64,000 bases of DNA from an uncultured Latescibacterota bacterium (lineage in GTDB: Bacteria > Latescibacterota > UBA2968 > UBA8231). Each line of letters starts with the position of its first letter. The first letter of the stretch is position 1. The translations under genes were made by a program, and so were the position numbers. The DNA is taken from contig OY282352.1 of assembly GCA_958295495.1 (NCBI GenBank), positions 2,108,001-2,172,000 of the forward strand. The letters are read 5' to 3'. The notes below the pieces were generated by a model, which was not told the origin of the DNA, made no database searches, and worked only from the letters and a program-made list of their open reading frames with translations. Shown here one piece after another: positions 28,502 to 34,461 of this stretch.

Positions 28502-30241
28502 TTGGAGCGCCGACTAATCGACGCTATCGACGAGGCAGCACCGATCTTTTTGGAGAAGTACACCCGTCCCGGCGGCACCCTGATATGGATGGAAGAATAC
28601 CCCGGCGACGGAGTATGGGCCGACGACCTATACGAGGCATTCTTCAACTGGCCTCACTACTATGCCCTAGGCGGCAGCGAGTACACGGGCGTCAAGGCCC
28701 TAGAGGAGTGGAACGCCATTACTCGGCAGCTAGAGCACGACTACGGCCGCGTCACCCGAGAGTTTATCAACGACGACGACTGGTTTCACAACGCCGAAAA
28801 CTACATCTACTTCTATCACTTGGGGATGGCCGATCCGACCAACGCCGACACGCGCCGCCGGGCGCAGCGCTTTGCCGGATTTTATTTGAACGACGACCCG
28901 GCCGTGCCCAACTACGACCCCGAGCACCGCATCGTGCGCTCGCCCTGTAGCGGCAGCAAGGGGCCGCTCTTCCAAATGCGGCGCGGCGAAATCCGCTACG
29001 ACCTCACCCACGACCACGCCACGTTGGGACCGGGCTTTGACTTGCCCGCCAACTGGTGGGAGGACTCCGAGACCAAACGCCGCGTTGAGGAGCAATTTGA
29101 CCAAGTGGTCATGCAGGGCGACGTGACCGTCAACTTAGGTGTCGTGGCGCTGGTGGCAACGGCATTTCTCCACACTGGCGAGGCGCGGTATCGGGGGTGG
29201 ATCGAGGAATACGTAGGGGCCTGGATAGAGCGCACCGAGGCCAACGGCGGCATCGTCCCGGACAACATCGGCCCCAACGGCATTGTCGGCGAGATGCGCC
29301 AAGGGCAGTGGTGGGGCGGGCTGTACGGCTGGACCGGGCGCTATGGACACGGCATGATGGCCCGCGCGATCACTACGGCGGTGGAGGCCGCGCTGTTGGT
29401 CACGGGCGAGACCAAGTATTTGGACCTGCTTCGCATGCATCTAAATGCGCTAGTCGAGCACGGCCGCGAGGAAGGGGGGCGGCTGCTCGTGCCCTACAAG
29501 CACGCGGATGGGGGTTGGACCGCCTTCAACCCCATTGATCCCAATGCGCCGATCCACTTGTGGGCCGCGTCCATGGCGGAGCGGGACTGGCAGCGGCTGG
29601 AAACCTTGCGCCGAGGTGCTGAAAGCGAGTGGGAGCAGGTAGGGCAGCGCGGCCCGCGCTCGCTCGACGACCGCGCCTGGACCCGCTTTCTCGCCGGCGA
29701 GTTCCCGGATTACCCCGAGCGCATCTTGCAGACCAACTACCGAGAGGTCTGCGACCGCATCGCCAAGGTCATGGGCGACGAACAAGATCTCACCAAGCTC
29801 GACGTGCATTGGTGGCAGCAGGTCAACCCGGTGGTCACCGAAGCCTTGGTGCAGCTAACGACCGGCGCACCACAGACCATCTACTGGGGAGGATTGGCGC
29901 AAGGGCGGGTGCGCTATTTCGACGGCGAGCAGCAACGGCCGGGGTTGCCCCCGGACGTAGCAGCCCTGGTGACCGGCCTCAGCGGCGAGGGTGCCGAGCT
30001 GACGTTGGTCAACTTGAGCGCGAGTCGCATGCGGCAGGTGATCGTCGGTGCTGGCAGCTTTGGTGAGCACTGCTTTGGCCGGGTGCGAGCCGGCGACGAG
30101 GTCCTCGACGTGGATAGCACCTATTTCCAAGTCGAATTGGCACCGGCCAGCCAAGTCGAGTTGTCGCTCGCCATGCGGCGTTACAGCCAGCAGCCCAGCT
30201 TTCGCCTGCCTTGGCACGGCGAGCGGATTCCATATCGCTAA
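28502..30241 (+). CDS. Large (alpha/alpha)6-barrel-like hypothetical protein
   Basis: The 579-residue protein is rich in Trp/Tyr/His repeats (WPHYYALGGSEYTGVKALEEW, in two parts) and segments such as GGLYGWTGRYGHGMMARA and LVPYKHADGGWTAFNP, consistent with an alpha/alpha toroid of the glycosidase/GMGH type. The function is not assignable. The start is uncertain: TTG at 28502 is used, but a GTG at 28451 (GAGAGG upstream) opens the same frame and meets a TAG at 28493. The true N-terminus may therefore be interrupted. The downstream PhyH follows after 20 bp and is co-transcribed. Confidence 0.7.
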   Translation: MERRLIDAIDEAAPIFLEKYTRPGGTLIWMEEYPGDGVWADDLYEAFFNWPHYYALGGSEYTGVKALEEWNAITRQLEHDYGRVTREFINDDDWFHNAENYIYFYHLGMADPTNADTRRRAQRFAGFYLNDDPAVPNYDPEHRIVRSPCSGSKGPLFQMRRGEIRYDLTHDHATLGPGFDLPANWWEDSETKRRVEEQFDQVVMQGDVTVNLGVVALVATAFLHTGEARYRGWIEEYVGAWIERTEANGGIVPDNIGPNGIVGEMRQGQWWGGLYGWTGRYGHGMMARAITTAVEAALLVTGETKYLDLLRMHLNALVEHGREEGGRLLVPYKHADGGWTAFNPIDPNAPIHLWAASMAERDWQRLETLRRGAESEWEQVGQRGPRSLDDRAWTRFLAGEFPDYPERILQTNYREVCDRIAKVMGDEQDLTKLDVHWWQQVNPVVTEALVQLTTGAPQTIYWGGLAQGRVRYFDGEQQRPGLPPDVAALVTGLSGEGAELTLVNLSASRMRQVIVGAGSFGEHCFGRVRAGDEVLDVDSTYFQVELAPASQVELSLAMRRYSQQPSFRLPWHGERIPYR

Positions 30242-30261
30242 CAAAATTAGGAGATGAGGCG

Positions 30262-31008
30262 ATGGACCAAGCCGACCGCGATTTCTTTGCTGCAAACGGC
30301 TATCTCAACTTAGGGCAGGTGCTTGCCGACGACGAGGTGCAATACTTCCGCGACATGTTCAATGGGGATATGGAAAGGTATCCCTATTTTTGGCACCACT
30401 ACGGCTATCACCAGCACACTAACTACGAGGCGTTGATCACCTCGCCGCAATTCGACGAACTCATCCGCCACCCTAAGATATACCCCACGATCGAGGCCCT
30501 GATGGGCGGGCCGCTCTGCTTTGGCGAGATCGGGCTGCGGCTGATGCGGGCCTACGACGGCCCGTTGCACCAAGGTTGGCACCGCGACAGGCCGCATTGG
30601 GACGAGCATCCGCTCCGCATGGACTACATCCAACTCATGGTCTATCTGACCGATGTCAACGAGGGAACGCATTGTTTTTCCCTGTCACCGGAGTCGGTAA
30701 GTCAGTCGGTGCTCGAAGATAAGGCGGAGCAGCTCAAGCGGGGCGGCGAGTACCACTTGCACGGGCCGGCCGGGACCTGCGCGCTGTTTAACGTGGCCGT
30801 GCTGCACACGGCGACGACGCGGCCCACGCAGGCAAAGCGGCGGACCGTGCAGATTTACTACGGGCATCGCAGCCGGGCACCGCTGGCGAACGATTCGACT
30901 ATTCCGGCGGCGTTTTGGCGAGAGAGCGAAGATGCGGAGACGCGGGCTTTTTACGGGGTTTTGAACGAGCGCACCAAGGCGTATTTGGCGGCGTTCCCCA
31001 GCACTTGA
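30262..31008 (+). CDS. Phytanoyl-CoA dioxygenase family protein
   Basis: The ATG at 30262 follows TTAGGAG, so the longer upstream frame inside the previous gene is rejected; the product is 248 residues. The HxD motif is intact in QGWHRDRPHWDEHP. The core then shows IQLMVYLTDVNEGTHCFSLSP and the distal histidine-arginine pair in AVLHTATTRPTQAKRRTVQ. It is a likely Fe(II)/2-oxoglutarate hydroxylase. It probably shares an operon with the toroid protein, whose product or substrate it may oxidise (inference). Confidence 0.85.
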   Translation: MDQADRDFFAANGYLNLGQVLADDEVQYFRDMFNGDMERYPYFWHHYGYHQHTNYEALITSPQFDELIRHPKIYPTIEALMGGPLCFGEIGLRLMRAYDGPLHQGWHRDRPHWDEHPLRMDYIQLMVYLTDVNEGTHCFSLSPESVSQSVLEDKAEQLKRGGEYHLHGPAGTCALFNVAVLHTATTRPTQAKRRTVQIYYGHRSRAPLANDSTIPAAFWRESEDAETRAFYGVLNERTKAYLAAFPST

Positions 31009-31071: not shown

Positions 31072-32247
31072 TTGCACACACCCCTGTTGAACATAGCACT
31101 CACTGATCTGGTGGACATTGCCGTCGTCGGCTTGCTGCTTTGGGGTCTAATAGCTTGGACCCGCCGAGTGCATACGCGGATGGCACTGCTTGGCTTGGCT
31201 TTTTTGGGCGTCTTCTACCTAGTAGCGCAGCAATTCAAGTTGCAGCTAACAACTTGGATATTCCAAGGCTTTATCCCGGTGCTATTAGTGGTGGTGGTGA
31301 TAGTCTTCCAAGATGATTTGCGCCGGCTCTTTGAGCAGATCGCCGCGCTCGGTCTGCGCCGCAAGGGTCCGCGGCTGGACCAAACCAGCATAGGGAAGCT
31401 GAGCAGGGGGTTGGATAGGTTGGCCAAAAAAAAATGCGGCGCCTTGGTGGTCCTGCCGGGGCGCGAGCCGATAGAACGACATTTTTTGCAGAGTGGGGTC
31501 CCTTTGGACGCGGAGATCAGCGAAGAACTCCTCGACAGCCTTTTCGACCCAGGTTCGGCTGGACACGACGGCGCACTGGTGATGCGCGACAATAGGCTTA
31601 TGAGCTTTGGGGTGCATTTGCCGCTTTCCGAGAATAGGGACGAGATGAGGGGGGGCGGTACGCGACACGCTGCCGCGTTGGGCCTAGCCGAACGCAGCGA
31701 TGCCCTGTGTCTAGTAGTCTCAGAGGAGCGCGGCACCATCGGGATCGCAGCGCGTGGGCAACTCGAGATTCTGAACGCTTCGGACCCGGACAAATTGTCG
31801 AACAGGATCAGAAACTACTTGCATACAGGGCCCCAAGTGAATGCCCGCCGGGTGGAGTGGCGGCGGTTGGGGCGGCGTCTGGTGGAAGGTCTTTTGGCCT
31901 TGGCCTTGGCCTTGGGCGCGTGGCTGGCCTTGGTGCCGGGCTCGGCGATTGAGGAGGCAGTGCTCCAAGTGCCCGTGGCCGTGGAGAACATGCCCGAAGG
32001 GTATGCGCTAAAGGGCGTCAAACCCCCAGAGGTGGAGGTGACAGTGGCCGGATCGCGGCGGACCCTGCTGTGGGCGAGCAACGCGGATTTCCAGTTCGTC
32101 ATTGACGCCAATCTCGTCAAATTAGGGCGGCGGACCTTCGAGGTATCCGCCCAGTCCGTGCGCCATGCGACCGGGTTGGCGGTCACCAGCATCAAGCCAG
32201 AGAAGGTGAAACTAACAGTGCATAAAGCGCGAGGAGGAGCGCGATAG
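31072..32247 (+). CDS. Diadenylate cyclase fused to a YbbR (CdaR) domain
   Basis: This is a 391-residue protein. Residues 10-80 hold three membrane helices as in CdaA. Residues 100-245 are the DAC domain, with D166-G-A168 (GHDGALVMRDNRL) and a GTRHAAALGLAERSDA segment; the usual RHR reads RHA here. A fourth helix is near 270-289, and residues 295-383 form a YbbR-like beta domain (VENMPEGYALKGVKPPEVEV). CdaA makes cyclic di-AMP and CdaR (YbbR) regulates it, normally as separate genes. The start is TTG at 31072. No glmM is adjacent. Confidence 0.85.
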   Translation: MHTPLLNIALTDLVDIAVVGLLLWGLIAWTRRVHTRMALLGLAFLGVFYLVAQQFKLQLTTWIFQGFIPVLLVVVVIVFQDDLRRLFEQIAALGLRRKGPRLDQTSIGKLSRGLDRLAKKKCGALVVLPGREPIERHFLQSGVPLDAEISEELLDSLFDPGSAGHDGALVMRDNRLMSFGVHLPLSENRDEMRGGGTRHAAALGLAERSDALCLVVSEERGTIGIAARGQLEILNASDPDKLSNRIRNYLHTGPQVNARRVEWRRLGRRLVEGLLALALALGAWLALVPGSAIEEAVLQVPVAVENMPEGYALKGVKPPEVEVTVAGSRRTLLWASNADFQFVIDANLVKLGRRTFEVSAQSVRHATGLAVTSIKPEKVKLTVHKARGGAR

Positions 32248-32331
32248 CGGCGAAGAGCGCTATTAGTCAAGGCCACCTTTTCTCCTCTCCTTTTTGCGGA
32301 ATGGCGTAGAAAGGAGTGTGGGTATCGATGA

Positions 32332-33228
32332 TCATCGCCCTATTGCTCCTCGCGTCAAATCGGTTTCGCTTTCAATGCGTTGGACGACCTCGTAGAAGAA
32401 ATCCCGCGACCAAATATCGATGGTTCGCGGGTCGCGCACGAACCGGACCACATCGTCCCGGGCGCGCCCAACATCGAGTCGGTCAACCGCTTGGCGCAAG
32501 AGTTCCACTAGGTGGTCCCGCGTCAAAGGCGTCTCGTCCCGATAATCGCCCGACTGCCTCATGCGTACCTCCAGATGGCTCAGACGCACTTGTGGATGAC
32601 GACCAGCGTACCAGACTAGATCGTACCAGTCCCGACCCTTGACGCGAGTCTGCCACCTCCGGCACAGGATGGCGTGTAGTTTGCCGGCGAGCAGATCGGG
32701 CAGACTATAAACGCGCACCGCAAACGGAATAGGTCGTAACAGATAGCGGCTCTCGGTCGCAAAGCCGCCGGGTGGATCGGTGTCCACCTCGAGTTTGATC
32801 CTTAGGACCGACCCAAGATGCAGCCCGGGGAGCCGTTCGGCGTCTGCTTCGATGACGAGCAACTGTTTGAGCGTATGGGCCTTGAGAAAAGCCGACTCAA
32901 TGGTCGTCTGCCGGGCTTGTTCTCTTTGCTCAAACTCAACGCGAAAACCAAAACTGCCGATCTCGCGCAAGAGTGACTCGCCATATTGCCCGAGCGAAAA
33001 CCCCGGGTCGGGTGTCAACAGCGAGAAGTCAATGTCCTCGGAATAGCGATCTAGGCCGTAGAGTACGCGCAGGGCCGTGCCCCCGTAGAAGGCGGCATGC
33101 TCAAAAAACTTGCTGCGCCAGAGGCCGAGCAACGCCAGTTCCTGCAGTATTTCCCGCAACGCATTGACGTAATCGTCGCGCGTTTGGGGCGCGTAGCGGT
33201 CGAGCATGGAGCGAATGGCCTCATGCAT
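32332..33228 (-). CDS. AbiEii/AbiGii-type nucleotidyltransferase toxin
   Basis: The 298-residue protein has the minimal nucleotidyltransferase core: GGTALRVLYGLDRYSEDIDFSL, with the GG and the DxDF acid pair, followed by the central LPDLLAGKLHAILCRRWQTRVKGRDWYDLVWYAG region (given in overlapping parts). This is the DUF1814/AbiEii pattern of type IV toxins that add pyrimidines to tRNA 3' ends. It overlaps the antitoxin gene by 8 bp and is translated after it. Confidence 0.9.
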   Translation of the reverse strand: MHEAIRSMLDRYAPQTRDDYVNALREILQELALLGLWRSKFFEHAAFYGGTALRVLYGLDRYSEDIDFSLLTPDPGFSLGQYGESLLREIGSFGFRVEFEQREQARQTTIESAFLKAHTLKQLLVIEADAERLPGLHLGSVLRIKLEVDTDPPGGFATESRYLLRPIPFAVRVYSLPDLLAGKLHAILCRRWQTRVKGRDWYDLVWYAGRHPQVRLSHLEVRMRQSGDYRDETPLTRDHLVELLRQAVDRLDVGRARDDVVRFVRDPRTIDIWSRDFFYEVVQRIESETDLTRGAIGR

Positions 33229-33874
33229 GGCTCTGCTCCCTTAGCGTCTGTAAACAGCGCATGAGCCGGTCGAGCTTCCGCGAATCGTAAGCTCTCGCTA
33301 TCGCATCGAGGCAATCGTTGTCGAGGACAGCCAAGCGGGCGGGATCTAGCCGCAGGTCGTCCAGCAAATACGGCCCATAGGCCGACAAGCGAATCCCGTC
33401 GAAGCGCTTGTCGGCCCATACCTTGTCCGCCAGTGCCTTTTCTGGGGAAGCAATCAGGAAGGACAGATCGTTGTGCTCTTCTAGGATGACGCCAACGGCG
33501 TAGCGGCTCTGGTTCAAGCGGCGGTAGGAGAAAATTCCGCAGGGCGTAGTGAAGGTGCGCGATCGCCCCAATGTCACAGAGGTGACCATCTCAACGCGTT
33601 CTGGTATGAGCCCGTGGTAGTTTAGTGCGTAGTCCAGACTTATATAGGAAGGCCCATGGATCAGATTGGCCAGCAGTTCCCGGCTGATAGGTGCTTGCCG
33701 GAGAGACTCGCCAAAGGCGTACAAGCCCTTCCTAAGGCGCACGATTTCTCCGGAAGCCAACAACCTGCAGATTTTGTCACGGGGCTTGCTAAATTGGGAT
33801 AAACAGGCGACCAACTGCTGGTAATCAAAGACATCCCGAGTGATCTGCTGCCGCAATGGGGTCGTTTCAAGCAT
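33221..33874 (-). CDS. AbiEi-type antitoxin (transcriptional regulator)
   Basis: The ATG at 33874 (MLETTPLRQQ) is chosen over a TTG four codons earlier; the product is 217 residues. The N-terminal winged-helix region (DVFDYQQLVACL ... GEIVRLRKGLYAFG) is the AbiEi domain, followed by the AbiEi_3-like half (YISLDYALNYHGLIPE, SPEKALADKVWADKRF). Antitoxins of this family neutralise AbiEii and autorepress by binding inverted repeats, and candidate operators lie just upstream. There is no clear ribosome site, so it may be leaderless. Confidence 0.9.
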   Translation of the reverse strand: MLETTPLRQQITRDVFDYQQLVACLSQFSKPRDKICRLLASGEIVRLRKGLYAFGESLRQAPISRELLANLIHGPSYISLDYALNYHGLIPERVEMVTSVTLGRSRTFTTPCGIFSYRRLNQSRYAVGVILEEHNDLSFLIASPEKALADKVWADKRFDGIRLSAYGPYLLDDLRLDPARLAVLDNDCLDAIARAYDSRKLDRLMRCLQTLREQSHA

Positions 33875-33892
33875 CTTGTACCGCAATAATAT

Positions 33893-33919
33893 ACATTAAT
33901 GTCCACAATTAGTAGACAT
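33893..33919. promoter_or_regulatory. Candidate AbiEi operator palindromes
   Basis: Upstream of the AbiEi start are a perfect palindrome ACATTAATGT (33893-33902) and an inverted repeat ATGTC (33899-33903) / GACAT (33915-33919) with an 11-nt spacer. AbiEi proteins are known to bind such repeats. The region to 34057 is AT-rich and holds no gene. Confidence 0.45.
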
Positions 33920-34057
33920 AGTGTGCTAAAAATAGGGTAATCCTAAAGGATTTTTTGTTTAGGGCCTGATCGTTGGGACGAAACTTGCATATATCGTCGT
34001 GGAAGGTACGGCACTTCGTAGATGTAAAAAGCTCATCTACCATGAGGCGTAACTCTT

Positions 34058-34285
34058 ATGGAAGCCCTGCTCAATGATTTTGGCCGCGTGTTTTTGTTGG
34101 AGCGGATGATGGCCTGCGCTATTACCATCTGCGTCTGCTATACAACCTATACCGATATTCACTTCCGCCATATCCCCCATTGGGCTAGTGGGGGCCTACT
34201 GGCCGTAGGTTTGCGCGAAGGCATGGTGCTGCGTTTGGCGATCTACGCTGGGGATAGAGCGGAGGAATACCGTTGTGACACATAA
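34058..34285 (+). pseudogene. Prepilin-peptidase (A24) N-terminal remnant
   Basis: The 75-codon frame contains AITICVCYTTYTDIHFRHIPHWASGG (in two parts), which resembles the first membrane helix and the YTDxxxxxIPN catalytic loop of type IV prepilin peptidases. The rest of the family (second aspartate and later helices) is missing and the frame ends in charged residues, so it is a truncated gene. A hairpin, GTAGATG/CATCTAC (34018-34040), lies just upstream. Confidence 0.4.
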
Positions 34286-34461
34286 ATCGATCATCTGACG
34301 CGGAATACCTGAAGGCTCGTCCGGACAGGAGACAGGATTTGCTTCTCCATCATGCTTTTTTTGCCCTGACGTGCCGCCCGCTCGTTTGCCGAATGCAGCC
34401 AAAATTCATATCCTATTATATTTTATTTGCTTATCATCCACTTTCATCCTCGGGAGTTACA

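Follow-up and report, generated by a model that had tools for sequence, protein, structure and literature searches.

A diadenylate cyclase domain and a YbbR domain in one predicted membrane protein, a fusion found across many bacterial phyla

The diadenylate cyclase CdaA and the YbbR protein CdaR are usually separate proteins, with CdaR as the usual outer-side regulator. A gene in the window analyzed here, a 64,000-nucleotide stretch of a single-contig Latescibacterota genome of 5,965,472 bases, appears to join the two in one chain (31072..32247, + strand) and to carry RHA where such cyclases have RHR. The locus therefore raises the questions of whether the fusion is genuine, how far it extends beyond this genome, and whether a protein with this altered motif can still make c-di-AMP.

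The gene is an open frame for 391 amino acids, stop codon included in the coordinates, and begins with TTG at a position that is the same in 8 of the 12 relatives displayed. That a DAC and a YbbR domain share one polypeptide, as the first-pass annotation had claimed, is borne out, with CdaA_N, DAC, and YbbR all exceeding their Pfam cut-offs within this frame. The CdaA_N membrane domain (PF19293; residues 6-83; 31087..31320, +) scores 35.4 bits against a cut-off of 23.8 (E 1.2e-8) and contains three helices (~10-32, 35-54, and 58-78), found by hydropathy and in the AF2 model. The DAC (diadenylate cyclase) domain (PF02457; residues 112-230; 31405..31761, +) scores 118.3 bits against a cut-off of 27 (E 1.9e-34), and its part of the AF2 model resembles CdaA/CdaM structures in Foldseek (best E 1.5e-13), where the top 50 matches are DAC chains throughout and have no bearing on YbbR. 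TIGR00159, the NCBIfam CdaA equivalog, gives residues 9-245 a score of 163.3 bits, below its cut-off of 188.8, and by this score the window protein is CdaA-like and outside strict CdaA.

Between the DAC and YbbR domains lies a fourth transmembrane helix (residues ~269-292; 31876..31947, +), with a hydropathy maximum of 2.24, charge asymmetry, and an AF2 helix at 264-287, in agreement with the earlier proposal. The YbbR domain (PF07949; residues 300-383; 31969..32220, +) falls within the limits of 295 to 383 first assigned to it and scores 31.1 bits against a cut-off of 22.3 (E 2.9e-7). A profile of the 81-row family alignment matches Lmo2119 (5hqh; E 3.8e-4, positions 290-376), a Listeria YbbR protein that we take to be CdaR, as well as the YbbR structure 2l3u (E 2.8e-3). 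Lys and Arg number 8 after the third helix, 6 before the fourth, and 0 just after it, and from this distribution and the hydropathy helices the DAC domain is expected on the inner side of the membrane and YbbR on the outer side. The AF2 model, built on the 81-row alignment (mean pLDDT 73.9, pTM 0.51; helices 10-32, 35-54, 58-78, and 264-287), shows a C-terminal domain made mainly of strands; we rely on it only for the secondary structure elements and for matching the DAC fold, as its domain packing is not trustworthy. Given the predicted topology, it is reasonable to infer, in line with the first-pass annotation, that the fusion would tie periplasmic sensing directly to synthesis.

An intervening stop exposed by resequencing had been named among the findings that could undo this picture. 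The frame is open, and orthologues are fused in all ten same-genus genomes, with 68-82% identity, which rules out an assembly or frameshift artefact. Nearly full-length matches (L008-L024) were found in 17 of 59 relatives searched, one of them G025, at 33% identity. A scan of sequenced genomes returned at least 565 confirmed relatives, from which the best 80, all aligned to residue 378 or beyond, were kept; the other 485 may include ordinary CdaA, and the spread is read from the best 80. Titles among these best 80 of at least 565 come from about ten phyla and include Latescibacterota, 'Gemmatimonadetes', Myxococcota, Deltaproteobacteria, Syntrophaceae, Binatia, Omnitrophota, Elusimicrobia, KSB1, Zixiibacteriota, and Opitutales. 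When the 81 alignment members were searched singly with Pfam at E 0.01, DAC was recognized in 81, CdaA_N in 79, and YbbR in 48. The fusion is thus not confined to one genome or phylum: it is the mark of a large clade across many phyla, with an RH[A/S/T] signature, and no Latescibacterota oddity. No title or visible abstract in the literature searched reports a CdaA-YbbR fusion. An earlier description is possible, for example in the Galperin 2023 catalogue 'All DACs in a row', which is said to classify DACs by domain architecture and may list this one.

To what extent does the active site of this clade depart from that of ordinary CdaA? We built an alignment of 139 distinct DAC sequences taken from the retrieved loci, identical and partial rows having been removed, comprising 81 fused rows (window included), 57 unfused rows, and one further sequence, L024, from G025. 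The DGA motif (residues 166-168; 31567..31575, +) is intact in the window protein, preceded by Gly-His (HDGA, 165-168), and is kept in all 81 fused rows. The motif expected to read RHR is RHA (residues 198-200; 31663..31671, +; TRHA, 197-200), just as first read, with the phosphate-contacting Arg and His retained; membership in PF02457 rests on the profile and not on RHR. Residue 200 is Ala, Thr, or Ser in 81/81 fused rows and Arg or Lys in 57/57 unfused rows. The metal/phosphate motif SEE is followed by a clade-specific Arg (SEER, residues 217-220; 31720..31731, +), residue 220 being Arg in 80 fused rows, Lys in one, and neither in any of the 57 unfused rows. Residue 182 and the changes R130 to Gly, L164 to Gly (giving G-HDGA), and A179 to Phe also separate the classes, so that six positions have no residue in common between the 81 and 57 rows. 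At the pair 200/220, unfused proteins combine R/K with T/S/N/E/Q and fused proteins A/T/S with R/K; at 164/179, the unfused order is large-small and the fused order small-large. In a tree built from 101 rows, 38 near copies among the 139 being left out, all 59 fused RH[AST] rows are set apart from every unfused row by a branch with 100/100 support. The class differences all fall on this single long branch and do not count as separate covariation events. On the strength of the clade-wide pattern and this branch, we read RHA as a lineage trait and not as damage.

L024 falls between the two classes. It shares with the window protein the domain order and the Arg after SEE, with Arg at both 200 and 220, and differs from the clade in that RHR, L-HDGA, A179, and R130 are kept, in having two YbbR matches on the chain, and in branching between the clade and ordinary CdaA. 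Its genome, G025, has one DAC and a c-di-AMP riboswitch. L024 is possibly an intermediate or a second fusion event.

Whether loss of the third Arg inactivates the site can be approached through residues and mutants described in other DACs. For Listeria CdaA, a review lists ATP contacts by L31, D71, T102, R103, H104, S122, and E124, with main-chain contacts by L88, G101, and E123, and the third Arg of RHR is absent from that list (PMC7288161). Mapped by constant offset from the DGA Asp, these listed contacts correspond to D166, T197, R198, H199, S217, E219, L183, G196, and E218, all present in the window protein, with one mismatch, L31 being replaced by V126. In S. aureus DacA, Y192 stacks on the adenine (PMC6368335); residue 182, likewise 16 after the DGA Asp, is His or Tyr in 78/81 fused rows. 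Replacement of RHR by AAA abolishes activity in DisA (PMC3328451) and in CdaS (PMC4568413), yet these results weigh less on the third Arg because the Arg and His were removed with it, and no single-change test of the third Arg was found in the literature searched.

Genomes with a fused gene and no other DAC offer a second line of evidence. One family includes G085 (Syntrophus sp. PtaB.Bin001, which carries L119). Each of its four genomes has exactly one DAC, which is fused and reads LRHT in 4/4, and each has one c-di-AMP riboswitch (RF00379, 94-98 bits), adjoining a K_trans gene in three genomes and a TrkH gene in the fourth. G124, a member of this family, is a single contig (3,179,300 bases), which makes it unlikely that a second DAC was overlooked there; we take it to be possibly Syntrophus aciditrophicus, which, if so, would give the clade a cultured model. 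The YbbR part is recognized by Pfam in G085 (23.7 bits), and that of the G124 protein has no Pfam match at E 0.001. These Syntrophus-type members have LRHT rather than TRHA and a longer C-terminus, which makes transfer to the window protein indirect. More broadly, the riboswitch occurs in 7/42 fused-gene genomes; one DAC over the cut-off was found in 20/66 such genomes, mostly drafts, and at least one further DAC in 46/66, and only 2 of the 20 one-DAC genomes (G085 and G122) are among the 7 with a riboswitch. The window genome and ten same-genus genomes yielded no c-di-AMP riboswitch, and the riboswitch was dropped as evidence inside the window genome.

With the listed ATP contacts kept and a riboswitch in all four sole-DAC genomes, RHx does not look inactivating, and the clade protein is probably still a working enzyme. 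The letters RHA in the first-pass annotation stand, and they should not be read as a damaged site, given that the third Arg lies outside the listed contacts, that Arg or Lys follows SEE in 81/81 fused rows, and that RHT forms are the sole DACs of riboswitch-carrying genomes. The idea that RHA signals a dead enzyme was considered and dropped as the leading view in the face of the clade-wide pattern and the sole-DAC riboswitch genomes. A working enzyme could, in principle, make something else, another cyclic or linear nucleotide, through a pocket rebuilt at G130, G164, F179, A200, and R220, an idea encouraged by the complete separation of the two classes at six positions. The riboswitches beside K+ transporter genes in sole-DAC genomes and the retention of the ATP contacts listed for Listeria CdaA speak against a different product, which we regard as very improbable.

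The window genome raises a further issue, as it has a second DAC (G000:C1:177895-178566; L001, L037), beside a gene judged by eye to be folP-like. This copy keeps RHR and reads DRA in place of DGA. The 23 unfused copies examined in the window's family (among L037-L061) likewise retain RHR, and every one of them has D[R/Q]A, 7 with Arg and 16 with Gln; in other parts of the phylum, three copies (L063, L067, and L072) read DLA. By analogy, a D[R/Q]A CdaA need not be dead, because DisA with Gly changed to Ala in DGA is active (PMC3328451). In other families of the class, DacZ-like DACs are present (L069 of G027, reading GARHVAAA; G038; G044), and DAC types therefore appear to replace one another within the class. 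A stand-alone YbbR protein of 327 amino acids (L070, G000:C1:2591500-2595500) adjoins a gene that is tsaD-like by eye, away from both DAC genes of the window genome.

Two DACs in one genome, together with the missing third Arg and the coexistence of an RHR CdaA or a DacZ-like DAC in most genomes, would fit a fused protein that, in the window genus, is a catalytically weak or dead paralogue, binding nucleotide or the folP-side CdaA and regulating it, with c-di-AMP synthesis left to the other CdaA. We consider this unlikely. The other listed catalytic residues are invariant or nearly so over the 81 rows, and would not persist in a dead enzyme; in the 20 genomes counted above, mostly drafts, no DAC but the fused form exceeds the cut-off, and in the whole G085 family this sole form accompanies the riboswitch; and the second CdaA of the window genome is itself altered. 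That both copies are altered, in the window genome and in the 9/10 same-genus genomes where both were found, and that DAC active sites lie between two domains, could also be taken to mean that the two form an obligate complementary heterodimer, fused DGA/RHA with folP-side D[R/Q]A/RHR. This arrangement seems scarcely credible, as the fused form occurs with a DacZ-like DAC in G038 and G044 and alone in the G085 family, the DQA form occurs in family members without a fused match to the window protein (for example, G012, G014, and G018), and DisA with the Gly-to-Ala change stays active.

We therefore favor the view, with good but incomplete confidence, that the window protein makes c-di-AMP as a CdaA-type synthase and carries a CdaR-like outer domain covalently on the same chain. 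Its enzymatic activity, the role of R220, and sensing by YbbR are what we infer from sequence. Under this proposal, the three N-terminal helices would anchor a cytoplasmic DAC domain, and the fourth helix would recross the membrane to place YbbR outside. Two DAC domains would meet face to face to form c-di-AMP from two ATP, the lost Arg of RHA probably being offset by the Arg after SEE (R220), and YbbR, present 1:1 in cis, would adjust the DAC-DAC meeting according to envelope condition. CdaR is described as an activator or repressor of CdaA depending on conditions, acting via the membrane part by an unclear mechanism (PMC8573169). The same source has R126 of B. subtilis CdaA docking GlmM; the corresponding position 120 is Lys in 38, Glu in 13, Gln in 10, and Asp in 6 of 81 fused rows, and GlmM control of the clade is therefore doubtful. 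More tentatively, and at somewhat less than even odds in our judgment, the clade may constitute a separate, widespread class of c-di-AMP synthase with a built-in regulator, in which the third Arg of RHR has in effect moved to after SEE, L164/A179 have become G/F and R130/E208 have become G/R, and regulation would cross the envelope via the protein's own fourth helix, without GlmM.

Neighboring genes were compared where flanks allowed, 59 of the best 80 loci having 1.5 kb on both sides. A CorA gene lies within 16 bp of the fused gene in 10 of the best 80 loci, one CorA being confirmed by Pfam. Abutment of a CorA-type Mg2+ transporter gene on the 3' end was seen at many Syntrophaceae-type loci (L112, L119, L120, L133, L136, L137, L141, L143, L146, L147, and L194-L197). 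Because the CorA gene abuts the fused cyclase gene, this suggests co-control of Mg2+ and K+. A DHH-DHHA1 phosphoesterase gene occurs within 300 bp in 8 of the best 80 loci, one of them Pfam-confirmed; as evidence in the window genome, DHH phosphoesterases were set aside as unspecific, being present in 14/14 genomes and E. coli. In the window, a PhyH-type dioxygenase gene (30211..31008, +; PF05721, 2.6e-13) ends 63 bp upstream of the fused gene, and its role in the system is doubtful. PhyH-related frames lie upstream in 10 of the best 80 loci, all ten from the window's genus, at a nearest distance of 0-3149 bp, and their link to c-di-AMP is unclear. Downstream, where L073 has 0.86 kb containing another PhyH-type gene, its second, the window has instead 2.2 kb with an AbiEii/AbiEi toxin-antitoxin pair (32246-34440); the pair has no relative among the best 80 of at least 565 related loci.

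A natural fusion of this kind fixes the partner, the stoichiometry, and the membrane geometry, and allows an outer domain and its cyclase to be studied in one polypeptide. The occurrence of RH[A/S/T] proteins as sole DACs in riboswitch-carrying genomes suggests that the 'RHR' rule for judging DAC activity is too strict, and c-di-AMP signaling is likely extended to many uncultured lineages. Compared with CdaA/DacA of Firmicutes and others, the fused protein has the same three-helix CdaA_N anchor and DAC fold, with DGA, GxRH, SEE, and HLPL. It differs in RH[A/S/T] for RHR, the Arg after SEE, and the Gly before HDGA, in the fourth helix and YbbR domain on the same chain, and in its TIGR00159 score under the cut-off. 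Like CdaR, the clade has YbbR behind one membrane helix, predicted to lie outside, and its family profile matches Lmo2119; unlike CdaR, this YbbR is the cyclase's own C-terminal part, fixed 1:1 in cis, and in the Syntrophaceae-type members that part is longer.
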